Shown here: positions 2 to 35,716 of the stretch, piece by piece
Layout of the letters: each line of letters begins with the position of its first letter
Numbering within the stretch: the first letter of the stretch is position 1
Origin: Candidatus Praeruminimicrobium purgamenti
Lineage (GTDB): Bacteria > Elusimicrobiota > Endomicrobiia > Endomicrobiales > Endomicrobiaceae
Direction of reading: 5' to 3'
Length of the DNA: 64,000 bases
NCBI GenBank assembly: GCA_018433585.1
Contig: JAHDQW010000001.1
Location: forward strand, 1-64,000
Notes under the pieces: generated by a model
Seen by the model: only the letters and a program-made list of their open reading frames with translations
What the model was told of the DNA's origin: nothing
Database searches by the model: none
Program-made: the position numbers and the translations under genes

Positions 2-760
2 TCGCTTGAATATTTTGTTAATAAAACGAATAAGACAGCCGAAGATTACGGGAACATAGCTTATTGGATAAATGAACTGAACAAATACAGTTCATTATTG
101 ACATCATCCGATAAAGCTTTGATAGCTAAAGCACAGGCAATGGTTAATACTTATAAAAACTCTGACGAAGCTAAAAAGAATGAAGCTGCGGGTTCATTAG
201 CGTTTTTTGTTAACAAAACGAATAAGACATCCGACGATTACGGTCATATATCCTATTGGATATCTGAATTGAAGAAATACGATTCATTATTAACATCATC
301 CGATAAAGCTTTGATTGCCAGAGCAGAAGCAATGGTTAATACTTACAAAAATTCGGATGAAGCTAAAAAAATAGATGTGGCAGCGTCGCTTGAATATTTT
401 GTTAACAAAACAAATAAGACAGCTGAAGATTACGGTCATATAGCTTATTGGATATCTCAGTTGAAAACATACGGTTCATTGTTGACTTCAACCGATAAAG
501 CTTTGATAGCTAAAGCGGAAGCAATGGTTAATACTTATAAAAACTCTGACGAAGCAAAGAAAATAGAAGCAATCGGTTCACTGCAATATTTCGTTAATAA
601 AACTAATAAGACGTCTAAAGATTATGCACATATGTCTTATTGGATAGCTGAAGCTAAAAAGTATCAATCATTATTAAGTGATTCAGATAAAGCCTTGATA
701 GCTAAAGCGGAAGCAATGGTTAATGCATATAATGCTCCTTATAATAATAAGTTGAATGAA
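2..760 (+). repeat. In-frame 192-bp tandem repeat encoding 64-residue units
   Basis: Equivalent codons recur at 98, 290, 482 and 674, exactly 192 bases apart. The window opens inside an earlier copy, and the last copy breaks down after about 25 residues. Each unit carries SDKALIAKAEAMV, then NSDEAKK, then FVNKTNKT and a Tyr/Trp-containing helix. Copies are close but not identical. The array continues upstream, so the total copy number is unknown. A stalk or adhesin-like helical repeat is a guess. Confidence 0.95.
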
Positions 761-18129: not shown

Positions 18130-21100
18130 TTGCTAAAAATTAATAAAAAACAATTAAGTAAACTGTGTTCAATAATAACTGCGGCATGCTTTTCTGTTAC
18201 TATACTGAGCAATAACATATTTGCCGTTGCCGAATATGGAACCGGTACAAACGGCAATAAATATTTTGTATCATATAAAAGCATAATTTCAGAGAAGTAC
18301 GGCAAGGTTACTTCTTATAACGATTTAAACAGCGATACAGTTGTTATTAATATACAGGATTTACATTGTGATTACGGCGTACAGAAAAATATAGCTTCTT
18401 TAATAAAAGAGCTTGATAAACATCAAAACAATATTAAAAATATATATGTTGAAGGCGGTTTCGGGAATATAGATACGTCTTTTTTCTCGAATTTGGATAA
18501 AAATTATAGAAATAAAGTTCTGGAGAATCTTTTAAAGTCCGGAAATCTTACCGGAGCTGAATATTATTCTGTAATAAGCGGCAAAACAGGATTTTTAAAA
18601 GGGATAGAAAATAAAGAACTGCACGAAGAGAACATTGCAAGGCTCGTCAATATATTAAATGACAGAAATACAAATCTAAAATACTTGTCAAATATTAACA
18701 GAGAAATAGATTTTTTAAAAGCTAAATATCTTAGTTCAAACAATAAAGAATTCAATGAAATAATATCAAAATATGAAAACGGGGAAATACGCCAGGATAA
18801 GTACTTCAGTTATTTGTCGTCTTATTTAAATAAAAACCGGATAAATATGTCAAAATATCCAAATTTGTCCATTTATTTAGGACTGTCTCAGAACGGTAAA
18901 AATTTAGATTTTGATAAAGTAACTGCGCAGTTGGAAAGAGTTGTGCAAATTATAAAAAATTCTGTTTCGTATGAAGAATATAACAGCTTTCTAAACGCGA
19001 CTGATAATTTGACCGATGTGTTATCTCTGAAAAAAAATATAGAGCTGTTTTGTCAGTCTGAGAATATTTCGTTAAACGATAAATATCCTGATTTATATAA
19101 ATTCCTGTCGTTAAAAAACAAAGCAGTAAGTTTTAATCCTTTGGAATTGGTTAAGGAAGAAAGAAATCTTACGGATGTTGTAAGAACTTATCTCTCTGAA
19201 GACCAAACAGATTTGGAAATTGCGTACTTAAGTGATTTCCAAAAATATTTTTCAGGATATTTAACATCTAGTTTAACGGCAGCGCAATGGGAATATTTTA
19301 AAACAGGTATTGATAAATTTAAAGAATTATATGCGAAATATTCAATATCAAACGATGTAGCAAAACTTGATAAAGAGTTTGAACAGCTTAATAAATTCTA
19401 TGAAGTTAATACTGATAGAAATAATATATTTGTGGATAATATGGGTTTGGGGAACGGCGCTATTTATGTTGCTGCTGAGCAGAAGAGCACTCCTGCGGAA
19501 ATGTTAAAAAATGCAAAAAATATTGTAATACTTGTCGCCGGAGGTTACCATACTTCAGGGGTTAATAAAATATTGAACGATAAAAATATCAGCAATATTA
19601 CGATAACACCTAATGTGTTGAGCGCGTCATCTGTTTTAACAAAGCAGAATTATGAATTTATAGCAAAACAGCAGACTATACAAAATCAGACTATAGCGCT
19701 CGGACTTTTGTCAAATGCAACTCAAAGGGAACAAATCCGGCAGATAGTCGGGGCTTTGTTTTTAGGTCAAAATTTAGACGGTGTTAATATTTCTATTTTA
19801 GTCGAACAGTTAAATCAGTTGTTCGGACAGAAAATAAAAGTAACAAATTTAATTGATGAAAATAAACTTGAATTTGCCATGCCTGACGGGAATTCTTTCA
19901 AAATAGACGTTAACGAAAATGTTTCAAGAATTATCAACGAGCAAAATTTAAAAGAAATGCCGTCTTCGGTTTTAGCTCAGGTAACAGGCGATAAATTAAA
20001 TGAAATAGCAAATTTGGTTTTAAAAACTACATTTAATATGGGACAAGAAATTTTTGCGCCTCAGATATATAAAATAAGTAAAGAAGTCTGTGTTTTTATG
20101 GTGGAAAACAAATGGTATCTCGGCAACGGTGCCGTATGGGATATAGCAAATTCCGGTTATTCGGGACAAACTCTTGACGGGGTTGATCCAGTGATATATG
20201 AGTATATGCCTGAAGTTATGCAAAATGCTCTTTTAAATAAAGAAAACAATAATAATCCTGGCGCTTCAAAAAAACCAAAACAGTCTTTAGGAAAAACGAT
20301 AAGCAATGCAATAAGAACAGTAATTTTGCCGATATTGCTTGTAATAGTTATGTTGTCTTCCACAGGATGCAGTATTTTTAATAACAGCAATAATACTCCT
20401 ACTCCTCCTGTGCAGATAGAGCAGGTAATAGATCTTACATCGTCAGAGAAACAGTTTCAGGAAAACATAGAACAGCAGCTTGATAAATATTATGCAGGCA
20501 ACGGCTCTTTCAAGTCGTTCCTTTATGAAAATATGAGTGAATCGAATAAGTCCGGTTTAACTAAAGACCAGATTACTGCCCTGCAAAATTTACAAAACTT
20601 ATATGACCAGTCACTAGCCGCATTAAGTTATATGCAGATGGGTGAAATAGCGAAAGCAGAAAGTATTTTGTGCTCAATAAGAAATGGCGTGAATATGTAC
20701 AAGTCAAATTTAGAACAGAAACAAGTAACAGGCGAAATCGTTTGGGTAGGTATTGCGATAATGCAGTATAAGTTGCTTACAGGCAGCGACAGGTTTGATG
20801 ATTTATTGGAAAAAGTAGAACTCCAGCTTATTTTTGTAGAGGGAGATAAAGGGGCATATTCGGGAACGCCAAAGGAAAGTTGGCTCTCTACCGAACATGC
20901 ATTGGATATCATTGCCTACTATAATTTAAAACTGCAATTTGATGCTTCTGATGAAAAAGCTAAGACGAAATTGACGGATGCATCGTCGTTTCTTTATAAT
21001 AATTTATATATAAAAGAAGAGGGGAGGTTTAAAAGAGGAAGAGATGATAATTTCTCTGTTTTAGACACTTGCTCATGGGGAATTCAGGTTTTAACTGCAG

Positions 21101-24021
21101 TAAAAAGCATGCATCCCGACCTTTATAAAAATACGGAACTTAAAAATATTGATTTGGATAAATTATTGGAATATGCTGAAAATAATTTCAGCTTGAAAGT
21201 TGAGCATAACGGAGTTACATATAATAATTTGTACAGATGGAGTAATGAAACTACAAGCCCTGTCAGTTTTGAATGGACTATGCAAATGGCTGTAACGTAT
21301 AATTTGTTGGGGAATACGGATAAGGCAAATGCAATCTTGGCGGATGTAAAAGCCTATTCAAAAGCTTTAGGCTTTAATGACAGTATTCCTTACAGCAATG
21401 TAAACAATACAAAGAATTATTCAGATTACGGGTGGGATGTTTTCGTTGTCCCTGCATTGTGTACGACTGTCGGTCAGACAATGCAAATAGAATTCGGAAG
21501 TTTTTTCTTTCCTATATCTAAAATAAAAGGTATTGAGTACTCTGAATCATCGGGAGAATATGAATCTATTCACTTTATTGAATATTACGGAAGCAATTGG
21601 AAGACTTATGCAAGCAATATTTTGCTTGATTTAAGATATTCGAAAGAAATTGAAGTTAAACTCAAGCTTATAGGTAATTATGAAAATCCAAAAATAAGAT
21701 ATCAACTGTTGCCCGTAACAAAGGGATCTCAAAATTTAGAAGGGACAGTATTCGGTTATAATATGGAAGACTTCTCTTTTGACAGTGACGGGAATATGAT
21801 TCTTAAAATTTCTATGGATAAATTTTTGACATCTCAGATGGGAAATAAAGCTTTGGAAATGACTCAGGAAGAACTAAAATATTATCTTATGGATTTGGAA
21901 CACATAAAATTCATTATTATTGCTGGAAAAACTTCTTTCGGAACCGCAATAAACAAAGAAAATTTAAATATAGAAATAAAAAGTATCAATATTAAATATG
22001 AAGACGGGAAAACAAAGAAATATATTAATGACGAATCTTTACTTTCGTCTGATGAAATGACGTCTGCAAGCAGTAAACCGGGATCGATTCTTCCTGAAAC
22101 TTTCGGCGCTGTTAATGATTTAATATTAAAGGGCGAAATTTCAATGTGGAATATGCTGAAAGAAATATTGAAAAAAGAGACTTTTTATTCGATAATACAT
22201 CCTGTTAAGTTTGTTTTAAATCATAAAACGCAGCCTGGGCAAACAGGCGCAAAAGCAGTTGTTTATTCGACTTTTATAGCAGCTTTTACCGCGTTCAATA
22301 TTTTATTATTTACGGCAGCGCCTGTTTTGTTAATACCTTTGATAAGTTTAATAACAGGTCTGATGGCTAATATAACTACCCACACATTGATAGATTATTT
22401 TTATTTAAAATCTTCAGGTTTACAGGAAGCTGTGAGACTTTACGGTTCTGAAAAAGTGAAGTTTTCCGAATCAGGGAAGCTGAATATTGCTGATTCTCAA
22501 AAAGCTGTTCCTATGTTTGTTATAAACGATAAGCCTTCCAATTTTCAGGAATTTGATTTTAAACCGATATCGGTTAAATTTAAATCAAAAGACGGTAAAG
22601 AAGTTAAAGGATGGCTTGGCAGATATAAAGGTGCGTCTGTATTGTTTGCGGACGGAGCAAATTATGAAGATATCGTTAATAATTTCAGACAAACAAGACA
22701 GTTTTCGCAATCCAATAAAAAAATCAGCGCAAATGTGGATATAATAGAAATTGATTTAAATAATCCTGATTCTGACATCAAATATTCAAAGAGCGGAAAT
22801 CCGTTGGCAGGTTTAAATGCTTTGAAAACAAATAATATCATTGATATTCAAAAAGAAGTATCACTGTTGAATAATAAAAAAGTTGAAGCGATAACAATTA
22901 ATCAAAATATAGCTTTATTTATTGATGATAATGCGGATAATATAATGTCATACAATGATTTGTTGTCATCTATAGAACTTTATGTTAAAAATGATAACCT
23001 CGGTACAGATTCAAAAATTTTGTTTACGGATAAATATCTGGACAGAATTATCCAGCTTATCAGACAAGATGTTTCAAAAGATGCTAAATCAAAAGAAGAA
23101 ATCGAAAAACTTACGGCTGAAAAATTTATGCAGATTCTTAAGGAAGCGAAAAGTAAAAATAAAGATATTTCCGTCGTTTTTGACCAGCCGGAGACAACAG
23201 ATTTTAATAAGTATTTTCAATATGGAATATTTTCTTATGTTGCCAACGGTAAATATTTTGACAGTGTTTCCGGAACTGACGTAAATACAAAAATTGTTAC
23301 AAATTTTGACCAGGTTCAGGGATTTGACGGTTCAATATCAATAATAAAAGTAAGTTTGTTTAAGGATAAAATAGCTAAGTCATCAGGTATATTTACATTC
23401 TTGAATTCAGCCATGAATATAAAAGAAATGCTTGAAAAAAGAAGTGTTGATTTTGTAAGGCAGACTGCAAATAATTTTGATTTTAATCAAATACCTCAGA
23501 TTTCTGATGGTGCTCTTATAGATATAATAAAAGCTAAAGATACGGATAAATACAGCCTGCTGGCAAAATATATAAATGACGCAAGCTCTATTGCAATGTA
23601 TTATAACGGTTTAAAAAACGCAAACGAAAAAGAAATTTTTATCAACACTCTTTTAGAAAGAATGCTGGCTGTTAATTTATTAAGACAGAAAGAGGCGTAT
23701 GAAGGATTAAAAGACCACAGACTTGAAGAGATACTTGCAAAGGCTTTGACGGCAAAGTATATAAATAATATAGATTCTTCTCTTAAATATGAGGATTTTT
23801 TCAGCGTGAATGATTCCATGACGGCTTCTGAAGTTGAACAGAAACTGCTGGAAAGAGTTTCTTTCCTGACAAATGAGGCTTTTAATAAAAACAGTCCTCA
23901 GGCCATAAATGAAATTATAGAAATACTGCCTTTATATGCCGACAGAAATACCGAGTTAAGAACGACGAAAGTTGAATTGATAAACGTTCAAAATATCAGA
24001 GGTATTTTGAGCGCGGCTTAA
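18130..24021 (+). CDS. Giant secreted multidomain protein 2 (TraB/ChaN/TIKI-like + glycoside-hydrolase-like)
   Basis: 1,963 residues from a TTG start with AGGCGG 8 bases upstream; the start is chosen because a signal peptide follows (basic Lys run, hydrophobic core, likely cut after AVA at ~34). Residues ~45-500 have NIQDLH (His79), VEGG (Glu108) and AGGYHTSG (His474), like the GxxH/Glu pattern of the TraB/ChaN/TIKI superfamily, and match the start of giant 3. A hydrophobic segment at ~725-745 ends in a lipobox (LSSTGC, Cys747). Residues ~760-1140 look like an (alpha/alpha)6-toroid carbohydrate enzyme, with GEIVWVGIAIMQY, STEHALD, DTCSWG and SFEWTMQMAV. Then come a beta-rich, possibly carbohydrate-binding part (~1140-1310), two membrane helices (~1375-1430), and a helical tail ending in IRGILSAA. 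It lies 89 bases after giant 1. Activity is not established; catalytic residues of the toroid cannot be fixed from sequence alone. Confidence 0.88.
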   Translation: MLKINKKQLSKLCSIITAACFSVTILSNNIFAVAEYGTGTNGNKYFVSYKSIISEKYGKVTSYNDLNSDTVVINIQDLHCDYGVQKNIASLIKELDKHQNNIKNIYVEGGFGNIDTSFFSNLDKNYRNKVLENLLKSGNLTGAEYYSVISGKTGFLKGIENKELHEENIARLVNILNDRNTNLKYLSNINREIDFLKAKYLSSNNKEFNEIISKYENGEIRQDKYFSYLSSYLNKNRINMSKYPNLSIYLGLSQNGKNLDFDKVTAQLERVVQIIKNSVSYEEYNSFLNATDNLTDVLSLKKNIELFCQSENISLNDKYPDLYKFLSLKNKAVSFNPLELVKEERNLTDVVRTYLSEDQTDLEIAYLSDFQKYFSGYLTSSLTAAQWEYFKTGIDKFKELYAKYSISNDVAKLDKEFEQLNKFYEVNTDRNNIFVDNMGLGNGAIYVAAEQKSTPAEMLKNAKNIVILVAGGYHTSGVNKILNDKNISNITITPNVLSASSVLTKQNYEFIAKQQTIQNQTIALGLLSNATQREQIRQIVGALFLGQNLDGVNISILVEQLNQLFGQKIKVTNLIDENKLEFAMPDGNSFKIDVNENVSRIINEQNLKEMPSSVLAQVTGDKLNEIANLVLKTTFNMGQEIFAPQIYKISKEVCVFMVENKWYLGNGAVWDIANSGYSGQTLDGVDPVIYEYMPEVMQNALLNKENNNNPGASKKPKQSLGKTISNAIRTVILPILLVIVMLSSTGCSIFNNSNNTPTPPVQIEQVIDLTSSEKQFQENIEQQLDKYYAGNGSFKSFLYENMSESNKSGLTKDQITALQNLQNLYDQSLAALSYMQMGEIAKAESILCSIRNGVNMYKSNLEQKQVTGEIVWVGIAIMQYKLLTGSDRFDDLLEKVELQLIFVEGDKGAYSGTPKESWLSTEHALDIIAYYNLKLQFDASDEKAKTKLTDASSFLYNNLYIKEEGRFKRGRDDNFSVLDTCSWGIQVLTAVKSMHPDLYKNTELKNIDLDKLLEYAENNFSLKVEHNGVTYNNLYRWSNETTSPVSFEWTMQMAVTYNLLGNTDKANAILADVKAYSKALGFNDSIPYSNVNNTKNYSDYGWDVFVVPALCTTVGQTMQIEFGSFFFPISKIKGIEYSESSGEYESIHFIEYYGSNWKTYASNILLDLRYSKEIEVKLKLIGNYENPKIRYQLLPVTKGSQNLEGTVFGYNMEDFSFDSDGNMILKISMDKFLTSQMGNKALEMTQEELKYYLMDLEHIKFIIIAGKTSFGTAINKENLNIEIKSINIKYEDGKTKKYINDESLLSSDEMTSASSKPGSILPETFGAVNDLILKGEISMWNMLKEILKKETFYSIIHPVKFVLNHKTQPGQTGAKAVVYSTFIAAFTAFNILLFTAAPVLLIPLISLITGLMANITTHTLIDYFYLKSSGLQEAVRLYGSEKVKFSESGKLNIADSQKAVPMFVINDKPSNFQEFDFKPISVKFKSKDGKEVKGWLGRYKGASVLFADGANYEDIVNNFRQTRQFSQSNKKISANVDIIEIDLNNPDSDIKYSKSGNPLAGLNALKTNNIIDIQKEVSLLNNKKVEAITINQNIALFIDDNADNIMSYNDLLSSIELYVKNDNLGTDSKILFTDKYLDRIIQLIRQDVSKDAKSKEEIEKLTAEKFMQILKEAKSKNKDISVVFDQPETTDFNKYFQYGIFSYVANGKYFDSVSGTDVNTKIVTNFDQVQGFDGSISIIKVSLFKDKIAKSSGIFTFLNSAMNIKEMLEKRSVDFVRQTANNFDFNQIPQISDGALIDIIKAKDTDKYSLLAKYINDASSIAMYYNGLKNANEKEIFINTLLERMLAVNLLRQKEAYEGLKDHRLEEILAKALTAKYINNIDSSLKYEDFFSVNDSMTASEVEQKLLERVSFLTNEAFNKNSPQAINEIIEILPLYADRNTELRTTKVELINVQNIRGILSAA

Positions 24022-24155: not shown

Positions 24156-25820
24156 ATGAGAAAATTAAGAATATTTTTTATGGATAATTGGGGCAAGATT
24201 TTGGTGGCATTATCAATACTTCTTTTAGTATTGCTGACTTTATGGGGTCTCAGCAAACTTGAGTCCTTTTATAGAAATATGACAGTTGCTACGCTTCCTA
24301 TGCAGATTCTTATAGGCGGTATGCATGCTATGGTATTTGTCGGGGCATATCTGTTTTTTATGAAAGGCGGATTCGGGAAGATAACAAAGAAAAGAATAAA
24401 AGCTTCTGATATTAATGTTAAATTCAGCGATGTTATAGGGCTTGAAGGCGCAAAAAGAGAAGCTATGGAAGTTGTTCAGCTGATAAAAGACGGCGCAAAA
24501 GTGAAGAAAATAGGCGGTAAAATAGTTAAAGGCATCATTCTTATGGGGCCTCCGGGCTGCGGTAAAACCTTGCTTGCAAAAGCTATTGCTACAGAATCAA
24601 AAATGCCTTTTTTATCCATATCAGGCAGTGAATTTGTAGAAGTTTTTGTCGGAGTCGGAGCTTCCAGAGTCAGACAGTTATTTCAGAAAGCAAGAAAACT
24701 CGCTTATGCGGAAGGTGCATGTATCGTTTTTATAGATGAAATAGAAGTTATAGGAAGAGGAAGAACTTTTTCATATATGGGCGGCGGGGAAGAAACAAAC
24801 AGCACTCAAAATCAGCTGCTTGTCGAACTGGACGGACTTGACAGCAAAAGGCATAACATAGTCGTTATAGGCGCTACAAACGCTAATGAAAGCGTTATGG
24901 ATAAAGCTCTTTTAAGACCGGGAAGATTTGACAGAAAAATATATATAAATCTGCCTAATCTTAAGGAAAGAGAGGAACTTTTTAAATTTTATTTGAAAAA
25001 AGTTAAGGCTGATCCGGAGATAGATGTTTCAAGACTGGCTAAAAAATCGGTTTATAAGTCTCCTGCAGAAATAGAGAATATAATAAAAGAATCCGCTCTT
25101 ATAGCTACGAGAAAAAACAAAGATATTATTGATATAGACGATATTTCTGATGCAATTGACAGAATAGATTTAGGGCTTGAAAGTCATATAAGCATGAGTG
25201 ATAAAGAAAAAGAGATGACTGCTTATCACGAGGCCGGACATGCCGCAACATTGTATTTCCTTCATCCTACGGATGATGTTTTTAAAGCCACAATAAAATC
25301 AAGGGGAGATGCATTGGGATTAGTTTCGCATAATCCTAAGGAAGAACTTCATACCCAAAACAAAGAAAAACTCATAGCTGACATTATTGTCAGTCTTGCA
25401 GGATACGGCGCAGAAAAAATAAAGTACGGTACAACTTCAACGGGAGTATCTTCCGACTTTAAAAAAGCAATGGCAATAGCCAATGCAATGGTTTGGCAGT
25501 TTGGAATGGGCGAAGACGGATTTATAGGTGATTTTACAGTCATACCGAAAGAAAACATGTCTACTAATTTAAAAGAAAAATTAAATCAGCAAACCATGAA
25601 AATCTTGGATTCGTGTCTGAAAAAGGTTAATATTTGTTTGACTGAACAGTGGGATATTGTAGATGAAATGGCAAAAGCGTTAATTGAAAAAGAAGAACTT
25701 GATTATGATGACATAGATGCAATTTTTGCAAAATACGGTAAGAATAAAGATAAATCTTATATAAATACTAATATTGCGGGAGATAAAGCCGTTAAACAGC
25801 CGGACATACAAAATGTTTAA
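24156..25820 (+). CDS. FtsH-like membrane AAA+ zinc metalloprotease with short periplasmic loop
   Basis: 554 residues. An ATP-driven inner-membrane protease of the FtsH family that would extract and degrade membrane or tailed proteins. Two membrane helices (~14-34 and ~50-72) are followed by an AAA+ module: Walker A GPPGCGKT, pore loop FVEVFVG, Walker B IVFIDEIE, and ALLRPGRFDR with the arginine fingers. The M41 protease domain has HEAGH and a later Asp in GVSSDF. The loop between the helices is about 15 residues, against roughly 70 in standard FtsH, and the protein is shorter than the usual 600-650. I take ATG 24156, with AGGGG 6 bases upstream, over the in-frame TTG at 24150. It is first in an operon with a lipoprotein, a secreted protein and giant 3. 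It may be a specialised paralogue rather than the housekeeping FtsH, so I give no symbol. Confidence 0.92.
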   Translation: MRKLRIFFMDNWGKILVALSILLLVLLTLWGLSKLESFYRNMTVATLPMQILIGGMHAMVFVGAYLFFMKGGFGKITKKRIKASDINVKFSDVIGLEGAKREAMEVVQLIKDGAKVKKIGGKIVKGIILMGPPGCGKTLLAKAIATESKMPFLSISGSEFVEVFVGVGASRVRQLFQKARKLAYAEGACIVFIDEIEVIGRGRTFSYMGGGEETNSTQNQLLVELDGLDSKRHNIVVIGATNANESVMDKALLRPGRFDRKIYINLPNLKEREELFKFYLKKVKADPEIDVSRLAKKSVYKSPAEIENIIKESALIATRKNKDIIDIDDISDAIDRIDLGLESHISMSDKEKEMTAYHEAGHAATLYFLHPTDDVFKATIKSRGDALGLVSHNPKEELHTQNKEKLIADIIVSLAGYGAEKIKYGTTSTGVSSDFKKAMAIANAMVWQFGMGEDGFIGDFTVIPKENMSTNLKEKLNQQTMKILDSCLKKVNICLTEQWDIVDEMAKALIEKEELDYDDIDAIFAKYGKNKDKSYINTNIAGDKAVKQPDIQNV

Positions 25821-26583
25821 ATTATCAGTAAAGCTTTTATTGGCTGTTTTTTTGTTTTCTTCCTGTGCGCCGACATATCCTAAAGACAGATTGCTTGATG
25901 ATGTAAAAAAACTTGTAAAAAAAGAATCAGGACAGGATTGTAAACTTGTAAAAATAGAAGACACTTTTTATCTTGATATGGAGATGAAAGGGCTTACGTC
26001 TTCAAATACAAAAGTCGTCAGTGATGCTGTTATGAGCTTGCAGAATGCTGTTTTTGCAATAACACGGGTTGCTTTGAGTTCGGATGCTGACATAAAAATA
26101 ATGGTCATAACGGCTTATGATCCGTCTTATAACGTATCTTTAAGAATGTTTCAGAATATAGATGATGTTAAAGGGTATTTTTATCAGCGTATTTCCAGGG
26201 GAGACTACGAACAGAGGCAACTGCTTGAGTTTGAAGGTCCCGAAATGGCAGAAAAGGCCGTCAATGACAAACATCATATAACGCAGGAAGAGTATGTCGC
26301 AAGGCTTACGATTTCTCAGATTAATATGATCGGCAGAAAAAATCCCGTTTTAACGCCTTTAATAAATGCGTTGGAACTGCGATTCGGATATATAACAGAC
26401 GGAACAATTTATCTTTCATCTAAAGATTCGGACAATATAGGGACTGAAGATTTACTCAAAAAAATTATATCTGACGAAATTGTGAAAAATTTGCAAAAAT
26501 ATAAGCTTTTTTCGATAAAATCAGTTATACTATTAGATAGTAAAGGATCTGTAATTTTTGAAGTTCCTGTTACATCAAATTAA
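25813..26583 (+). CDS. Putative lipoprotein
   Basis: 256 residues. The ATG at 25813 overlaps the ftsH-like stop by 8 bases and starts a clean lipoprotein signal: Lys-containing N-region, hydrophobic core, lipobox FSSC with Cys18. An in-frame start at 25774 would bury this signal. The mature part is mixed alpha/beta with no family I recognise. Overlap with the protease gene suggests translational coupling, so a periplasmic or membrane partner of the protease or of giant 3 is possible but unproven. Confidence 0.85.
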   Translation: MFKLSVKLLLAVFLFSSCAPTYPKDRLLDDVKKLVKKESGQDCKLVKIEDTFYLDMEMKGLTSSNTKVVSDAVMSLQNAVFAITRVALSSDADIKIMVITAYDPSYNVSLRMFQNIDDVKGYFYQRISRGDYEQRQLLEFEGPEMAEKAVNDKHHITQEEYVARLTISQINMIGRKNPVLTPLINALELRFGYITDGTIYLSSKDSDNIGTEDLLKKIISDEIVKNLQKYKLFSIKSVILLDSKGSVIFEVPVTSN

Positions 26584-26592
26584 AAGGTTTTT

Positions 26593-27054
26593 ATGAGAAA
26601 AATAAAAAGTATTTTTATTGTTTCTATTTTGCTTTTTAATTTATCGGCAAGCTTGCCTGCCGATGTTTTGCGGATGCACGGCAATGTGGGAAGTTTTGAT
26701 ATCAGCTCTTTTGTTGCCGAAGAAATGCAAAATGTTTTTGAATCTGTATTAACGCACGGCAATTCAGGGCAGACATCTCAAAATAAAGCGGAAAAACAGA
26801 ATTCGTACAGCATAAATACAAATGTCTTTTCTCAGTTTGTTATTTTTAAAAAAGCATCAAATTGCAGAGTATGCACACACTATGCTGATATGAAAGAGGA
26901 CATTTTTTTTGACAGCGGTTTTTTAAGTAATTATAAAACAGTCTTCCTGCGAAGCGGACTGACGGGATATGAAATGAGATTAAATTCATATATAGCGGAA
27001 ATTGTTCCGAATAATGATTTGTTTATTTTTACGGATAAAAATAGCAAAGGCTGA
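26593..27054 (+). CDS. Small secreted protein of unknown function
   Basis: 153 residues with a signal peptide (MRKIKS, hydrophobic core, likely cut near SLPA at ~23). The mature part has a CRVC pair, a Ser/Gln/Lys-rich linker, and a final part whose stop codon lies inside a terminator stem. It is 9 bases after the lipoprotein gene. I recognise no family. The CxxC could bind metal or form a disulfide. Confidence 0.75.
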   Translation: MRKIKSIFIVSILLFNLSASLPADVLRMHGNVGSFDISSFVAEEMQNVFESVLTHGNSGQTSQNKAEKQNSYSINTNVFSQFVIFKKASNCRVCTHYADMKEDIFFDSGFLSNYKTVFLRSGLTGYEMRLNSYIAEIVPNNDLFIFTDKNSKG

Positions 27055-27080
27055 CAATTATTGTCAGCCTTTATTATTTT
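27046..27080 (+). terminator. Intrinsic terminator overlapping a stop codon, just before giant gene 3
   Basis: A perfect 12-bp stem AAAGGCTGACAA / TTGTCAGCCTTT (27046-27057 with 27061-27072) with a 3-base loop is followed by ATTATTTT. The stop TGA (27052-27054) is inside the left arm. Giant 3's ribosome site begins at 27082, so this probably reduces, rather than fully stops, transcription into it. Ribosomes reaching the stop would cover the left arm. Confidence 0.8.
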
Positions 27081-27091
27081 CGGAGGGCAGT

Positions 27092-30000
27092 ATGATAAAG
27101 ATAAAAAAAATTCTTTCAGTATTTATATCGCTTTCATTATGTGTAACACTTTTCCCTGTCAAGGCGCTGTCATCTGCCGTAACTCCGAACTTGTATAATT
27201 TTGACAGTTTCGGGAAAATCACTTCGGCACATTTTTACGACACGGATACAGTTGTTATAAATATACAGGATTTGCACAATAACAAAGAAGTTCAGGAAAA
27301 TATTTATAAACTTCTTACATCTCTTGATAAGCGGTATAAAAATATAGAGTTTTATCTTGAAGGGGCTTCCAAAAATATTGAATTTGGCGATTTTATAAAA
27401 GCTGCAGGTAAAGAAAATGCCGACAGATTTATTAACACTTTGTATATGGAATCCGGCATAAGCGGGAGCGAATATTTCGGCTATCAGAATAATAAAATTT
27501 TAAAACCGATAGAAGAAAAAGCTGTATATGATGAAGGCATAAACAATATCGCGTCTTTGCTTCAAAAAAAAGAAATTATTGAAAAATTACTAAAGATTAA
27601 ATATAGAAATATTAAAAGGCTTTCAGGAATATATCTTAACGGGGATCAAAAAAAAGTTTTAAGGTTATACGGCAGATATACAGACAAGAAAATTTCTTCT
27701 TCTGATTTTTATAAAAGGATTACAAAGGAACTTGAAAAAGCAAACATTAATCCGAATAAATATGTGAATTCCTCTATTTACAGAGCTATCCTTTCTGAAA
27801 ATTTGAAAACTGACCAAAACCAGATAAAAAAACAGCTTCAGTATCTGCTGTCTTCTTTAAAAGGAACGGTTTCATTTCAGGAGTATTCAAATTTAATTAA
27901 AGAGTCCGATAATTTTTTAAATATGGATATAGTTTTTTCCTATATCAGCATGAAAGTAAGCTCCGATGACAAATACAGAAAATATCCTGATTTGTTCAGA
28001 TTGATTAAATTGAAAGAACTGGCTTCTTTGATAGATCCTTTGGATTTGGTGCAGGAAGAAAAAGAAATGATCGGCGATCTATTGCTTTCATATTCTACAA
28101 ATTCCGCAAATAAAGATATTGTTTTCTTGAATATGTTTTTTCCGGCATATAGAAATTTGCTTACGGCAAATATAAGTTATCAAGAATATGAATATTATAA
28201 AAATAATATACGTAAATTTTACAATTCATATTTAAAATATGTCAGAGATGATGATTTTTTTGAATTATACGAATATTCCGGCACAGCCGAACGATTTAAC
28301 AATCTTAATATCGAAAGAAACAATTTGTTTGTAAAAACTTTAATTGAAGACTATAACGGGGATTCGTCCAATAAAACACAAATCTTCGGCAGATATGCAA
28401 ATATAAACGCCGTTTTGAATTCTCTTCCGAAAGTAAAGAAAATCAAGGTTATTGTAGCCGGAGGATTTCACACTTCAGGAATAAACGATCTTTTGGATAA
28501 CGATAAAATTTCGTATATAACCATAACGCCTTACGTTAAAAGTGAAGACGATACTTATGAACAACGCTATTCTGATTCATTGCTTCTGCAGGCTGAAGCG
28601 GACAGAAATGCCATAGCCGGCGAACCTTTATTGGAACAAAAGGCTCCTGCATTTTCAAATAATTTGGCGTCTGTCCTTAAGGATTACAGAAACGACGGAT
28701 ACAGTTGGGAAAAAATATCTTCATATATCAATGAAATTATTCGGGCAAATAATTTTCAGAACTCTATAAGATTTACTGTTTCCGGCGATAAAGCTGTTTT
28801 AGATGTTGTCAGCGACGCAGGGATAAAATATCAAATAGAATATAAAAACGGAAAAGTTTCAATAAAAAATAATGAAGAGTTAAGCCGCAATGCCGGCTCA
28901 GGCAATTCTACGGCTTTGGGTAAAAATATAAAACTTCTTATTAAAGAAGCTTTGACTCTTTCTTCAGTGTCACGTATGCTTGGTATATCCGTAAGAGACG
29001 AAATAGAACAAACGATGAGCGGAAAAGATATTAATGAAAATCAAAAAGCTGCAGATTTGTTAAGAAAACATAATATTTTGCTTCCTGAATTTGCGGATAA
29101 ATTTTTTGCTTCTTTGTTTAGAGTTTCTTCTAAAGTTAAATCTAATGAACGTTTGGAAAAATTACTTTCTGCCGTTCTTAGGGATTACGGACAGGAAGAA
29201 TTTAAGAATGCAAAAATTGTTGTAGGAACTTCGCCTAAACTTATAGGCGCAAAAGCTGACGGATACGGAGGAACGCAGGACTACGGATGTTTGGTTTATG
29301 TTGCCAGAGAAACAGACGGTAACGGAATTTACAGGGCAAAAGAATTTTTTATAGCGGATGCGTTGATGCAGAAGCTTGAAGACAGAAACGATGAGGAAGT
29401 ATTAAGATTTTTTGAAAATTTGTTAAATCACGAAAAACTTGAATCAATTGCTTTGCAGGGAGAAAGCGAAGTTTTTAATTCTTATGTAAAAATTAATAAT
29501 AAATCCAAAAATACCGGTACTTTCCATGAATTTGTATATTCAGCTGATTTTAATGATTTTCTCAAAGAACAGGGATATTCACAGGAACATTATGCTGTTC
29601 AGGTAGAATTGTTGGATGTTTTGGATAAAATTATCCAAGAAACAAATGACAGTAATTCAGAATATTCAAATGTTATTTCGGTAAGTGATTTGTCAGAAAA
29701 GAAAGACTATTCGGCCGACAAAATAAGAGATTTTTTAAATATCAGAATAGGTGTTCAGGATGTTACGAAACAATATATAAATGAACTTGCGGATAAAATT
29801 ATAAAGCAGATTGAAAAAGAACAAAGAGTGCAAATAAATAAAAATTCAGATATAAAACAAATATCGGGTATATTGGATAAATATGTTATTTCTTACAGGC
29901 AGTCAGACGGCGAAAAGTACATGAAAGATATTGCCGAATCAGTAAAGAACAGACTTGAAAATTTAATAATCCACCGTATGGAACTCGACCAAACTTCAGA

Positions 30001-33000
30001 GAATGCCAAAAATATAAAAGTGAAGATAACAATAGTCAGCGAAAATTTAGAAAGTACGGGATATGATGATAAATTCTTTTTAGACGATCCAAAATCGGTG
30101 CAAAACAGGAATATATTATTTATCGATGATATCATGTCGAAGCAAAGCGACACTTTTAACAGAATTTATGAATTATTTATGAAGTCAAAATCAAATAAAG
30201 TGCAGGGTTGCGTATTCTTCGATTTATCAAAAGAATCAGAGCAAAATTTATTGTCAAATATGGCTTATGAATTAATAATAGAGCCTCAAAGCGACGGAAG
30301 TTCAATATTAAATAATATAATAAACGACCTTAACGGAAATGTTTCAAAATATATTGTTCCATGGCTTATAAGGCTTATGTCTGAAAACAAAGACGTTTTT
30401 AAAGGAATAATTAAAGGATTAAACGAATCTTCTAAAAAACAGCTTATAAAAAGCATATATAATATTTTAGAGCAGAAGCAAAATATCAAAAAAGTTTCAT
30501 CTTATGAAATCTTTTATCTTTTGATGTGTCTGTCAAATGAAAAAATATTGGATGCTGCCGGTAAAAATGAAATACTTCAAGTATATAAAAAAAGCGATCT
30601 TGAAAATCTTGTGAAAGAAAAACAAGACGGCAAAGGCTTGGTAATGGAAGCAAAATATGATGATTGGAAAGATAATGTTCCTTTTCTTATATTGTACGCT
30701 TCGCTTCAAGGTTATTCAATTATAGACCTTTCCGGAATCAGCACTTTGAATTTTCAGGAAAGAAAACTCATATCCGAATATGCAAATAAATATAAAATTT
30801 CTATTGTTGATAAAAAAACAAAATCCAAACATGAATATGCGTCAAAACTTAATGAGCCGGGACTTAACGAGGCTGTAACTGTTTTGAGGGCAAAAGTCGA
30901 CGGATACAGACAAGTTTTTGACGAAGCTGTGAAAAAAATAAACGGCAACAAAAAATATTTTGATGAGGCTGCGCTTGATAAAGCAAATAAAGAATACAGT
31001 GGAAATATAAAATCCGCAATGCAGGAAGCAAAACAACTTGCGCTGAATATACTGAAGAAAGACGGAATACCTATAGATGAAAGATTATTTCTTATAATAA
31101 TCGGCGGTTCTTTAGTCAAAGGAAATATGATGGCTGATTCGGATATCTATTACGATGTTATAGTGCCGGACGGCTTTACGGCAAGGTCAATAGAAGCATA
31201 TTTTACGCCTTTGTATTTTTCGATACTTCAAAAAATGGGGCTTAATAATTATCATGTGTTGAAATATTCAACAACGCGCATAAGCAGAAGAAACATAAAT
31301 ACTTTTGTGGATGAAAAAGACGTTGCGGTGTTTTTAGATTATGAACCTATTGACGGGAACACTAATAATTCTCTTTACAGAAAATACATGGATAAAGTTA
31401 TTGAAGAAGCAGTTTCCAGAGGTAAAGAAACTTTGGAAGATTTATCGGTCGTAACAAAGCAATATTATCCTATTTCAAAAGAAGGACACGGCGAACTTGG
31501 TAATTCCTTTGTACAGTCGCACACCGAAAGCGAATCGTTCAGCAACAGATGGACGCTGATGGCATTTGAATCAAAATTAAAAGAAATAATTTTCCAATAT
31601 ATATACGACAATCGTGATAAAAATGAAATTGATATGGCAAAAATTCCAAGAAGCGTTGAAGAGCAGATTTCTTTTATCAAAAAAAACATAATGAGAAACG
31701 ATGCGGAAAATTTAAAGCTTGACAGGTTATACAGAGCTTGGATGATTCTATCCGGATACAGGTATGTCAAAACAAATAATACATGGACTATTTCTTCAGA
31801 AGAAGAGAAGCAACAGAGAGACTTGATAAACGAATTTGTAAAGCCTGAGACGGCAGGAAAAAGAAATTTTAAAACTATCACAAAAATTGCAAAAAGGGCT
31901 GATAATTACGGCGATGTATTATCTACTATAGAGAAATTTTTCTATGATAATGTTTCGTCTGTTGACACATACAGAAAAGCCTATGACAGTTATTCGCATA
32001 TATCTAAATGGATGACTTATAATTTAAAAGCTGATAAAGCCCAAAATCAGGAGATATGGAATAAAGCCAAGATAATGTCTCTTCTTGTTGAAATAGACAG
32101 CGAAGAAATAAGAAACAAGTTGAAAAATATACAGTATATAAGCCAATATACCGATGATATTTTTGCAAGTTTGGATAATATAAAAAAAATAGACAGAGAC
32201 TTTCCGGTATATTCAAATCTTGACGGAGAAAGATCTCTTCAGAATTATTGGAATGCCGTTATAACGACCGCAAAAACGCCTGACACAATGCTTGCTCTTC
32301 TTGCTTATAAGCTTACTAAAGCCCAATATTCTGATAATCAGGATGATAAAAAATTAATATACACGGTTTACCTGCCTTTGTCAAAAAGATTCGGACAGAG
32401 CGAGATATATGAGTATATAAGAAATACGTTGTTTGAATTCGATTATCCTAAAGAATATTTAAATTTATTAAGCGTAATTAAAAGTTTATACGGTAAGACT
32501 TATTCTGAAATAAACGATATTAATGAAACGATTTATAAACAATTTACGAAATATTTACGCGGTGAAAACGTAACGATAAAGTTCAGAACAAAATCTTTGT
32601 ACAGTATATACGAGAAAATCAATTCAAAAAGAGTAAATGACGAGGATATAAAACCTGTGACGCAGATTGAAAAGGATTTTATAACATTTATTCTTAAAGA
32701 CAGGAAAACTTTTCTCGAGAATGACAAAGAACTGAGGGAATACAGCGATATGCTGGCAGATATGGTAAAGAGCGTTTATTTCGAAAAAATTTCTTACACC
32801 GATAATTATGAAAAAATGAAAGAAGACATATTGTCTATCATAAACAAGAGATTTTCAGTGCAGACTGATAAAGAAAAAGAATTCTGTAATGCTTTAATTA
32901 AAAACTTTAAACTGCAAATATTCCAGAATTCGCAGTTTGTAGAATTTATATCGGTTATGATACAAAGAGCCGAAAATGAAAAATCAAAAGACGATAATGC

Positions 33001-35716
33001 TAAAAACCAGACTTTAAGAGATTATTTGTCGTCAAATCAGGAATTGTTTAAAAATAAATATTCGGCGTGTGTCTGGCTGTTTGATTTGTTCGGCGAAAAT
33101 CTTAAAGATTTGGTCGGACTTCATATAATTTCAGAAGACGGGAAATATCAAAAAGTTGAAGAAATGCTGGAGAAATATAAAAACAAGACAATATTTTCCG
33201 ATCTTAAAATTAATCCTAACAATACGCAGAGCAGATTAAAAATGAACGGACTTATAAACGGCAAAAGGCTGTTGATTCCTTCAGAAGTTTGTTTGTATAA
33301 AGAAACTGATTACAATAACGAAACTTACGGACTTTATAACACTGGTAAAATATCGGCTTCGCATTACATATACAAAATGGGCGCAGGATGGAATGCAAAT
33401 TATCTGGAAAATATTTTTGCGCATACAGTTGATTTAAATTATATGTATTCTCCTTCCGAAGACAATCAGGAATCTAAAAAATTTATTTTTACTTCCGATA
33501 ATTTTGTCACTACATATGATGTATCCGATAATTTTAAAAGAATTGCTTCACAATTTGACGATATCATAACATGCTTTGTCGAATATAACGATAAAATATA
33601 TGTTCAGGTGCTGCCGAAAGGTTCTACCGTATATGATTTAGGTATGTTCAAAGAATTTTCAGACAGAGGCGAAGTTTCTGTTTATGATGAATACGGAGAT
33701 GCTTTGGAAGCTGACGCTAAGGTCGAAAATATAAAAAGATACAAAATATTTAAAGATAGCATAGGTATGAAAATTCCGCAGGAACAGGAAGATTTTCATA
33801 CTACGAGATCCAAACTCCAGTATGAAAGAAGAAATTCTTCGAAAAAACAAACTGAGGAAGTTAAAACATTAACTGAATTAAGAAAGAAAATAAAACCTGC
33901 TGACATTATAAAATTGTCTTCAATCCTATTGAATAATTCTGAATTAATTGACATGAAAGAACTTACGGCTAAAGAAATCGCAGCTCAGATAAGTTCTAAG
34001 GAAAATACTGACGGATTAAACAAACAGCAGTTTCAGGATAATTTGGAACTTCTTATTACAACATTGCGGCATATTTTAAAAAGTTACGGATTAGATAAAG
34101 TAAATCTTTCCCATTTCTTAGTTAAATCTGTTGATGTTGCAAATCATTATAAACTGGCGAATGCATCTGAATTATATGAATGCGTTGCATACGGGATTAT
34201 AAACCTTGATTCAATAAAGACATATTTCTATACGTTTATAAATATAGAAACTAATAATTTTGCAGAGGTTATCGATAAAATAAACAGAGTTATGAAGATA
34301 AAAGAATTGTCAGACCCTGCTCAATACGGCAGAAATAAGATAGTTTTCAATATAAAAGACTCAGAAGGGAGAATAACAGAAGTAAAAACATATGTTTTGG
34401 AATCTTCTTTAACTGATTCAGAAATGATAAAAAAATTGTTTTCGATAGAGGGGATAAAAAATATTTCTTCAAAGAAAAATAAAAATGAATCAGGAACTTT
34501 TGTCAGTTTGGAATCTTTAAGGGCAAAAGATCCTCTTCCGTTGATGTCTTTAGGAAATAATGTAGAAGAACTTGTACGTTATGCGGCGCAGTTTCATTCA
34601 CAGCTTGTCCCTCAAATATTGAAAGGAACAGAGTTGGTCGGACAGAATGAAGATTTTATCTCTGCTCTTAACGAATATCCTGTGCTTTTTACTCAGATGT
34701 TGTTGAGTTTGTATGAACAAGGACGGAATGATAACGGAGAACTTTTATCAAAAGAAACGCCTTATCTTAAACAGTCCGAAACGGATAGAATTAAAATTGA
34801 AATAAGCGATAAATTAAGCGTTTCAAAAGTTAATATTGAAGTTTCAACAAATGCAGATTTGGTATTGAATGAAGATACATATTCTTTTGCAACGCTGGCA
34901 GTTTCCGGCGATGAAGCTACGCTTTATATAAGCGAAATGTTTTTAAAATCTCTTGAAAGCGTTCAGGAAAAAAGAAGTTTGCTGTTAGATGAATTGGCAT
35001 CTCATGAAATAAATGAATATCTTTCATTGACGTCAGGACGGGCATCGGACTATAAAGAATTTCACGAGCAAATAAAAGATAATGAAAACCAGCGCGAACT
35101 TTTTGATTTTGCCGATAATGTCGCAAAACAGATAATGATTACAAGAAAACAAAATTCATTGTATGAAATTAAAAATTTTCTATCGGATTTTATTGCAAAT
35201 TCCGTAATTGATAAAGAATCTGTCAAATTCGCATTAAACGGAAAAACAGATAACGAAAAGGAATCGGCGGAAAAAACTTTAAATGATTCTGTCGGCGGAA
35301 TTACAAAGTTGATTGTTTATACGCTTACCGGAGATATAAAAGCGTCATTAAACGGCAGAGACGGGTTATCTGCAATTCCTGTCGAAATATTGAAGTCAAT
35401 GGTCGTTTCTCTGTCTGATATGAACAAAGATGAGAAAATGGTTCTTTATAAATTGTTTAAATCCGTGAAAGATAAAGGAAATCCGCAATTTGAATCAAAA
35501 GAATCAGTAATAAAAACATTGACGGAATTGACTGCTAATGATCCCCAGTCGGATAAATATCAGTATTTATTGTCTCAAATAGTAGAGCAAATATATACAG
35601 CTGCAGATATTCGAAATATGATTGCTGAAGAACTTCCGTCTGTTAAAGTCGAGACAAATATTTCCGATACTAAGGTTTCTATTGAAAGGATGCGTAACAT
35701 ATTGGCTGCGGCGTAA
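27092..35716 (+). CDS. Giant secreted multidomain protein 3 (TraB/ChaN/TIKI-like + nucleotidyltransferase-like + RelA/SpoT-like)
   Basis: 2,874 residues. ATG 27092 has GGAGG at 27082-27086 and begins a signal peptide (MIKIKK, hydrophobic core, cut near ALSSA); the in-frame ATG at 27002 would run through the upstream gene and terminator. Residues ~45-490 match giant 2's first domain (NIQDLH with His62, AGGFHTSG with His460). Near residue 1338, GGSLVKGNMMADSD resembles the DUF294/GlnD-type nucleotidyltransferase motif. Residues ~1634-2200 follow RelA/SpoT in order: LALLAYKL, VYLPLSKRFGQ, RTKSLYSIYEK, LKDLVGLHII, ISASHYIYK, then a TGS-like LPKGSTVYDLG. The HD and several catalytic positions are replaced, so activity is doubtful. 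Near 2638, HEINE and a later FHEQ could bind metal. The tail is MRNILAAA. An exported protein carrying a fold of cytoplasmic alarmone enzymes is odd. The gene is certain; its role is unknown. Confidence 0.88.
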   Translation: MIKIKKILSVFISLSLCVTLFPVKALSSAVTPNLYNFDSFGKITSAHFYDTDTVVINIQDLHNNKEVQENIYKLLTSLDKRYKNIEFYLEGASKNIEFGDFIKAAGKENADRFINTLYMESGISGSEYFGYQNNKILKPIEEKAVYDEGINNIASLLQKKEIIEKLLKIKYRNIKRLSGIYLNGDQKKVLRLYGRYTDKKISSSDFYKRITKELEKANINPNKYVNSSIYRAILSENLKTDQNQIKKQLQYLLSSLKGTVSFQEYSNLIKESDNFLNMDIVFSYISMKVSSDDKYRKYPDLFRLIKLKELASLIDPLDLVQEEKEMIGDLLLSYSTNSANKDIVFLNMFFPAYRNLLTANISYQEYEYYKNNIRKFYNSYLKYVRDDDFFELYEYSGTAERFNNLNIERNNLFVKTLIEDYNGDSSNKTQIFGRYANINAVLNSLPKVKKIKVIVAGGFHTSGINDLLDNDKISYITITPYVKSEDDTYEQRYSDSLLLQAEADRNAIAGEPLLEQKAPAFSNNLASVLKDYRNDGYSWEKISSYINEIIRANNFQNSIRFTVSGDKAVLDVVSDAGIKYQIEYKNGKVSIKNNEELSRNAGSGNSTALGKNIKLLIKEALTLSSVSRMLGISVRDEIEQTMSGKDINENQKAADLLRKHNILLPEFADKFFASLFRVSSKVKSNERLEKLLSAVLRDYGQEEFKNAKIVVGTSPKLIGAKADGYGGTQDYGCLVYVARETDGNGIYRAKEFFIADALMQKLEDRNDEEVLRFFENLLNHEKLESIALQGESEVFNSYVKINNKSKNTGTFHEFVYSADFNDFLKEQGYSQEHYAVQVELLDVLDKIIQETNDSNSEYSNVISVSDLSEKKDYSADKIRDFLNIRIGVQDVTKQYINELADKIIKQIEKEQRVQINKNSDIKQISGILDKYVISYRQSDGEKYMKDIAESVKNRLENLIIHRMELDQTSENAKNIKVKITIVSENLESTGYDDKFFLDDPKSVQNRNILFIDDIMSKQSDTFNRIYELFMKSKSNKVQGCVFFDLSKESEQNLLSNMAYELIIEPQSDGSSILNNIINDLNGNVSKYIVPWLIRLMSENKDVFKGIIKGLNESSKKQLIKSIYNILEQKQNIKKVSSYEIFYLLMCLSNEKILDAAGKNEILQVYKKSDLENLVKEKQDGKGLVMEAKYDDWKDNVPFLILYASLQGYSIIDLSGISTLNFQERKLISEYANKYKISIVDKKTKSKHEYASKLNEPGLNEAVTVLRAKVDGYRQVFDEAVKKINGNKKYFDEAALDKANKEYSGNIKSAMQEAKQLALNILKKDGIPIDERLFLIIIGGSLVKGNMMADSDIYYDVIVPDGFTARSIEAYFTPLYFSILQKMGLNNYHVLKYSTTRISRRNINTFVDEKDVAVFLDYEPIDGNTNNSLYRKYMDKVIEEAVSRGKETLEDLSVVTKQYYPISKEGHGELGNSFVQSHTESESFSNRWTLMAFESKLKEIIFQYIYDNRDKNEIDMAKIPRSVEEQISFIKKNIMRNDAENLKLDRLYRAWMILSGYRYVKTNNTWTISSEEEKQQRDLINEFVKPETAGKRNFKTITKIAKRADNYGDVLSTIEKFFYDNVSSVDTYRKAYDSYSHISKWMTYNLKADKAQNQEIWNKAKIMSLLVEIDSEEIRNKLKNIQYISQYTDDIFASLDNIKKIDRDFPVYSNLDGERSLQNYWNAVITTAKTPDTMLALLAYKLTKAQYSDNQDDKKLIYTVYLPLSKRFGQSEIYEYIRNTLFEFDYPKEYLNLLSVIKSLYGKTYSEINDINETIYKQFTKYLRGENVTIKFRTKSLYSIYEKINSKRVNDEDIKPVTQIEKDFITFILKDRKTFLENDKELREYSDMLADMVKSVYFEKISYTDNYEKMKEDILSIINKRFSVQTDKEKEFCNALIKNFKLQIFQNSQFVEFISVMIQRAENEKSKDDNAKNQTLRDYLSSNQELFKNKYSACVWLFDLFGENLKDLVGLHIISEDGKYQKVEEMLEKYKNKTIFSDLKINPNNTQSRLKMNGLINGKRLLIPSEVCLYKETDYNNETYGLYNTGKISASHYIYKMGAGWNANYLENIFAHTVDLNYMYSPSEDNQESKKFIFTSDNFVTTYDVSDNFKRIASQFDDIITCFVEYNDKIYVQVLPKGSTVYDLGMFKEFSDRGEVSVYDEYGDALEADAKVENIKRYKIFKDSIGMKIPQEQEDFHTTRSKLQYERRNSSKKQTEEVKTLTELRKKIKPADIIKLSSILLNNSELIDMKELTAKEIAAQISSKENTDGLNKQQFQDNLELLITTLRHILKSYGLDKVNLSHFLVKSVDVANHYKLANASELYECVAYGIINLDSIKTYFYTFINIETNNFAEVIDKINRVMKIKELSDPAQYGRNKIVFNIKDSEGRITEVKTYVLESSLTDSEMIKKLFSIEGIKNISSKKNKNESGTFVSLESLRAKDPLPLMSLGNNVEELVRYAAQFHSQLVPQILKGTELVGQNEDFISALNEYPVLFTQMLLSLYEQGRNDNGELLSKETPYLKQSETDRIKIEISDKLSVSKVNIEVSTNADLVLNEDTYSFATLAVSGDEATLYISEMFLKSLESVQEKRSLLLDELASHEINEYLSLTSGRASDYKEFHEQIKDNENQRELFDFADNVAKQIMITRKQNSLYEIKNFLSDFIANSVIDKESVKFALNGKTDNEKESAEKTLNDSVGGITKLIVYTLTGDIKASLNGRDGLSAIPVEILKSMVVSLSDMNKDEKMVLYKLFKSVKDKGNPQFESKESVIKTLTELTANDPQSDKYQYLLSQIVEQIYTAADIRNMIAEELPSVKVETNISDTKVSIERMRNILAAA

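Follow-up and report, generated by a model that had tools for sequence, protein, structure and literature searches.

Alarmone chemistry is normally cytoplasmic, and the long RelA/SpoT homologues (RSHs) Rel, RelA and SpoT share the domain order HD, synthetase (SYN) and TGS. Small exported alarmone synthetases (EAS) of Streptomyces and Vibrio, such as SaEAS and VpEAS, characterised as recently as 2025, are active outside the cytoplasm (PMC12691689, mBio 2025); the survey of these enzymes, whose search was restricted so as to leave out large multidomain RSHs, did not mention Elusimicrobia (PMC12691689). Huge proteins have been described from Elusimicrobiota and Omnitrophota, where giant open reading frames (ORFs) are frequent and few annotated domains have been reported (PMC11573180, PMC10066038). 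The stretch analysed here (the window, 64,000 nucleotides of contig JAHDQW010000001.1) comes from Candidatus Praeruminimicrobium purgamenti, an uncultured gut-and-groundwater bacterium of the Endomicrobiaceae (Elusimicrobiota), whose nearest named relatives, including Candidatus Ruminimicrobiellum and Proruminimicrobium, belong to the same family. It encodes giant 3, a predicted exported protein in which a sequence-only reading had recognised a degenerate RelA/SpoT architecture.

Giant 3 resembles long RSHs in domain order and fold, in the RxKxxYSIxxK motif, the Asp of DxxG, the Glu of ExQIRT and an HWxYK-like motif, and in its TGS part. It differs from them in its predicted exported giant context, in the loss of the HD ligands, of the YxSxH G-loop and of QxR, and in an insert; it also lacks the C-terminal ACT and ZFD domains, as does the canonical RSH of the host itself. 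With EAS it shares a predicted Sec signal peptide and the RSH synthetase fold (8vx3 at Foldseek rank 24, E 0.25), the combination by which EAS are recognised. However, characterised EAS are small single-SYNTH proteins with a canonical active site, whereas giant 3 carries a long-RSH derivative within a 2874-residue chain and its acceptor-site residues are changed. Since active EAS exist in Streptomyces and Vibrio (PMC12691689), the novelty lies not in an extracytoplasmic location by itself but in the long-RSH origin, the giant context and the remodelled site. Compared with the published huge proteins, the giants considered here form a defined family with a common N-terminal domain (N-domain), a common tail and enzyme modules.

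Residues ~1620-2220 of giant 3 are a true RSH consisting of a truncated HD domain, a synthetase and a TGS domain. The corresponding features, all on the + strand, are as follows.

27092..35716, +: giant 3, a signal-peptide-bearing giant of 2874 residues (single ORF, GGAGG before the ATG, full-length orthologues in relatives)
31943..32395, +: relic of the RSH hydrolase (HD) domain without its metal ligands (hhalign, residue table, helical in the model)
32396..32632, +: RSH synthetase, part 1, with the ATP motif RTKSLYSIYEK at 32585-32617 (profiles, Foldseek, dN/dS 0.053)
32633..33082, +: insert of about 150 residues within the synthetase, helical and lineage-specific (short or missing in other genera)
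33083..33382, +: RSH synthetase, part 2, with DLVGLHI, EVCLYK and SHYIYK (hhalign, residue table, dN/dS 0.085)
33560..33748, +: TGS-like domain VLPKGSTVYDLG (hhalign to the TGS end, ubiquitin-like Foldseek matches)

The RSH motifs quoted in the sequence-only reading were all found in ORF 27002-35716 (+), in the order and at the places given, with residue numbers that were 30 too high for a start at ATG 27092. Taken alone, giant 3 matched the Pfam RelA_SpoT family at E 0.61, and the best phmmer match in the PDB was an RSH at E 0.039. A profile built from the segments of 16 relatives gave 13 matches in the PDB, all of them RSHs (best 8.7e-10), and the curated Pfam RelA_SpoT cut-off was passed by two giant relatives. 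Comparison by hhalign with 21 canonical RSHs of the phylum yielded a probability of 98.8% and E 8.4e-17; the 329 aligned columns run from the latter half of HD as far as the TGS end. Searched against 341 genomes of the phylum, the giant-module profile also retrieved ordinary RSHs of ~485 residues (up to 7e-20). The AlphaFold2 model of the module (pLDDT 75.5, pTM 0.68) had Rel, RelA or SpoT structures as its top 16 Foldseek matches in the PDB (best E 9.9e-7). Small alarmone synthetases (SAS) ranked next, together with, for the C-terminal part, ubiquitin-like folds, as a TGS domain predicts; TM-scores stayed low, at about 0.2-0.5, owing to the insert and to a linker that was modelled poorly. By profile as well as by fold similarity to HD-SYN-TGS proteins, the module thus belongs to the RSH superfamily, as had been proposed from its motifs.

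Residues were compared in an alignment of the giants with canonical RSHs, counts referring to the 15 giants that span the sites. The Arg, Lys, Ser and Lys of RxKxxxSxxxK were kept in 15/15 giants, as were the DxxG Asp, the ExQIRT Glu and the HWxYK His, and these residues include R234, K236, K244, D257, E317 and H336 in the numbering of the host's own RSH; in giant 3 the Asp, Glu and His codons of synthetase part 2 lie at 33107 (DLVGLHI), 33284 (EVCLYK) and 33362 (SHYIYK). According to the present alignment, the six positions correspond to R78, K80, K88, D107, E174 and H190 of SaRelP, and the invariant Ser to its S84. In SaRelP, R78, K80, S84, K88 and H190 contact ATP, while D107 and E174 contact Mg2+ (PMC5794853). 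Synthetase positions invariant among canonical RSHs were retained in the giants at 6/9 sites of the ATP site versus 3/37 elsewhere (Fisher p 6e-4).

A different picture emerged for the other sites. The HD metal ligands (His and HD positions) were replaced across the giant relatives, leaving no basis for RSH hydrolase activity, and in giant 3 itself the replacement of LADRLHN by LAYKLTK was confirmed. The guanosine Tyr of the G-loop was Q, L or F in all giants but one, and the Ser and His of YxSxH were replaced, mostly by Arg and Lys. In ExQIRT, the Q had become C, V or I and the R had become Y or F, in line with the loss of the Arg already noticed in giant 3 (EVCLYK); the canonical combination of G-loop Tyr and ExQxR was absent from the giants. 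The position of SaRelP R91 was occupied by Ser (Ala in one giant) and that of R112 by His in all giants but one. Columns of the HD and TGS parts were weakly conserved among the giants. The term 'degenerate' therefore suits the HD part, a dead hydrolase in the relatives, and the rebuilt guanosine site, but not the ATP/Mg2+ half, which is invariant and selected; the retention of the EVQIRT Glu, the DxxG Asp and the ATP-motif residues across the family had been overlooked.

The ratio of non-synonymous to synonymous substitution rates (dN/dS) was estimated between giant 3 and its orthologue from the same genus; as synonymous sites were near saturation, the values are rough. The two parts of the synthetase gave 0.053 and 0.085, the HD relic 0.084, the TGS part 0.061 and the region near the C-terminus 0.236; for comparison, the ratio over the entire giant was 0.111 and that of the canonical RSH 0.024. 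The RSH module of giant 3 is maintained and remodelled under purifying selection and is not decaying. The insert of about 150 residues inferred earlier is real and is predicted to be helical (pLDDT mostly 80-93), although its scope is narrow: it was found only in the genus of giant 3 and in Ruminimicrobiellum-type relatives, other genera having a short version or none.

Of 60 related genomes, 20 contained homologous RSH-like segments, and the strong matches lay within ORFs of about 1400-5900 residues. Among the 341 genomes of the phylum, giant RSH versions were present in 21, of which 19 were from the same family and two from other families of the order; a search of viral contigs for relatives of the module found none. 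The giant module is an extra copy, since the host genome also encodes an ordinary RSH of 484 residues. In a phylogenetic tree, all giant segments, including those from the two other families, fell on one side of a branch separating them from canonical RSHs (support 100/100), a branch so long, in a tree whose root is not fixed, that the origin of the giant module cannot be placed from it. The distribution is most simply explained by a single entry of a long RSH into the exported giant family, early in Endomicrobiales. Two giants from other families of Endomicrobiales combine an RSH-like segment with further domains: L118:6139-13209 (-) with a cytidylate kinase (P-loop intact) and a metallophosphatase, and L044:3-17813 (-) with Dus, Maf, amylase-like and methyltransferase domains. 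In genus g8 (genomes of 0.2-1.4 Mb), a canonical RSH over the cut-off was found in 0/3 searched genomes, and giants were missing from most genomes.

Giant 3 is encoded by a single ORF, and its start is probably the ATG at 27092, because a GGAGG lies 5 bases upstream; the signal-peptide-like stretch MIKIKKILSVFISLSLCVTLFPVKALSS then forms the N-terminus. The signal peptide proposed earlier thus finds support: this stretch is the sole one above the hydropathy threshold in the whole protein, and relatives with a complete N-terminus start in the same manner. The ends of the protein are as follows.

27092..27175, +: signal peptide with n, h and c regions and an ALSS cleavage-like site, boundary approximate (sequence, hydropathy, relatives' N-termini)
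27173..28681, +: N-domain shared by the giants, IQDLH...EGA...GGFHT (12 loci in the host genome, 62/341 phylum genomes)
35699..35713, +: C-terminal tail ILAAA, [IVML]LxAA-like, common to the giants (C-termini compared)

At least 12 giants of the host genome (loci L133-L142 and, in the window, 18130-24021 and 27092-35716) have a signal-peptide-like start and the common N-domain, and most end in [IVML]LxAA or a similar tail. ORFs with the N-domain reach 12,656 residues in the phylum. Profile searches of the PDB and Foldseek searches from a weak model gave no match for this domain, so that a TIKI/ChaN-like fold, considered as a candidate, was unsupported. Pfam domains of the siblings comprise PPDK_N, PEP-utilizers, HD_5, metallophosphatase, NUDIX and cytidine deaminase, with guanylate kinase in giant 1; the NUDIX box, the deaminase zinc motifs, the HD-GYP signature and the phosphatase and PEP-synthase motifs look intact. 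These domains provide a concrete handle on the unexplained giants of Elusimicrobiota, many of which carry recognisable cytosolic enzyme domains within one family with shared ends.

Several siblings deserve separate mention. HD-GYP proteins are a known class of cyclic di-GMP (c-di-GMP) phosphodiesterases, and an intact-looking HD-GYP domain lies at residues about 872-1018 of the signal-peptide giant L137:2415-7463 (+) (HD_5 E 1.3e-21). Giant L136:1430-15511 (-), with 4694 residues and a signal peptide, matches PPDK_N in two stretches (E 1e-99) and includes a PEP-utilizing domain whose His motif is intact; a canonical PPDK of 923 residues is encoded elsewhere in the host genome. Between them, the giants at L138, L140 and L141 carry a NUDIX box in intact form, the zinc motifs of a cytidine deaminase, and metallophosphatase motifs together with HD motifs. 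Giant 1 (window 98-18040, cut by the contig end) contains a guanylate-kinase-like domain over the Pfam cut-off with an altered P-loop, as well as a DUF218 match below the cut-off.

The reading that we prefer, with a probability of roughly 0.5, is that the RSH module of giant 3, its hydrolase dead, is exported and binds ATP-Mg, and that outside the cytoplasm of the producer it either senses ATP or passes pyrophosphate to an acceptor different from GDP and GTP. Giant 3 would be a Sec-exported multidomain protein whose residues ~1620-2220 descend from a long HD-SYN-TGS protein taken into the exported giant family. The HD half would no longer hydrolyse alarmones and could serve at most as a scaffold. 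In the synthetase half the residues for ATP and Mg2+ are retained (the RxKxxxSxxxK Arg, Lys, Ser and Lys, the Asp and Glu for the metal, and the His for the ribose), while the guanosine-binding G-loop and its partners have been swapped for a largely fixed new set: Ser for Arg91 and His for Arg112 (SaRelP positions), mostly Arg and Lys for the Ser and His of YxSxH, and Tyr for the Arg of ExQxR. Once bound, ATP-Mg might donate pyrophosphate to the new acceptor or might only be sensed, in the periplasm, at the surface or in a partner cell. The finding, in a predicted exported giant, of a selectively preserved ATP site next to a rebuilt acceptor site suggests a new substrate, and the module may still act on nucleotides outside the producing cell. 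It would belong to a group of exported giants that handle nucleotides and phosphate, for which the enzyme motifs retained by the siblings also argue. A series of observations weighs against this reading: the model is only moderate (residues 463-527 below pLDDT 50), the two ATP-contact arginines at the R91 and R112 positions are lost family-wide, as are the Gln and Arg of ExQIRT, the catalytic Glu is replaced by Gln in the distant relative L118, signal peptides were called by eye and hydropathy, and ATP is scarce outside cells. More tentatively, the Endomicrobiales giants as a whole, with their common signal peptide, N-domain and LxAA-like tail, could be vehicles by which copies of cytosolic enzymes for nucleotides and second messengers are exported, among them a remodelled alarmone synthetase and an HD-GYP that looks intact, for nucleotide signalling chemistry outside the cell or in a partner.

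Other explanations draw partly on the same data. It is quite possible, if not favoured here, that the module is a pseudoenzyme in which the RSH fold is reused, without catalysis, as a structural or ligand-binding part such as a scaffold or nucleotide sensor: the lost HD ligands, G-loop and arginines, the missing Glu of L118, the little conserved TGS and HD columns and a neighbouring nucleotidyltransferase-like motif devoid of its second Asp all fit this, but the preferential retention of the metal Asp and Glu, the ATP-motif residues and the His would be unneeded by a bare scaffold. An effector exported into the cell of a partner, host or prey, where it would produce a nucleotide or RNA with an alarmone-like or other modification as toxic SAS (toxSAS) do, seems rather unlikely. 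EAS and toxic SAS offer precedents (PMC12691689), the siblings' HD-GYP, NUDIX and cytidine deaminase domains have cytosolic substrates, and in the reduced genus g8 giants are lacking in most genomes, which would also agree; however, neither a delivery system nor an immunity gene was identified beside giant 3, and a multidomain chain of 2874 residues is unlike known toxSAS effectors. A functionless relic passively kept within a giant ORF, which the weak single-sequence scores might suggest, is very improbable: reading frames are intact in relatives, residues are invariant across families of the order, and pseudogene decay was rejected as contradicted by dN/dS values of 0.05-0.09. Chance resemblance in motif order, to which the Pfam value for giant 3 alone could point, was rejected and is hardly conceivable in view of the hhalign score, the uniformly RSH matches of the relatives' profile in the PDB, the 16 leading fold matches and the reciprocal retrieval of canonical RSHs phylum-wide.

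Two further segments of giant 3 and three genes upstream complete the locus.

29879..30226, +: phosphoribosyltransferase-like domain FIDDIMSKQSDTF, boundaries approximate (profile against the PDB)
31103..31156, +: nucleotidyltransferase-like motif GGSLVKGNMMADSDIYYD, resemblance only (invariant residues in relatives)
24156..25820, +: second, divergent FtsH-type AAA+ protease (AAA E 4e-40, Peptidase_M41 E 2e-39)
25774..26583, +: predicted lipoprotein between the FtsH paralogue and giant 3 (ORF list, N-terminus)
26593..27054, +: small signal-peptide-bearing protein (ORF list, N-terminus)

The best PDB match of the phosphoribosyltransferase-like profile was HPRT (3ohp, E 4.1e-5), followed by PyrR and PRPP synthetase. 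In the nucleotidyltransferase-like motif, G1338, G1339, S1340, S1350, D1351 and Y1353 are invariant and the second Asp is missing; a PDB profile search gave no supporting match for it. Together with giant 3, the FtsH paralogue, the predicted lipoprotein and the small, predicted exported protein form a four-gene cluster. The divergent FtsH paralogue adjoins the giant 3 counterpart in most relatives, and the canonical FtsH is located elsewhere in the genome. A 12-pair hairpin ending in a T-rich tail (27046-27072) lies immediately upstream of giant 3 and may represent a terminator or attenuator.
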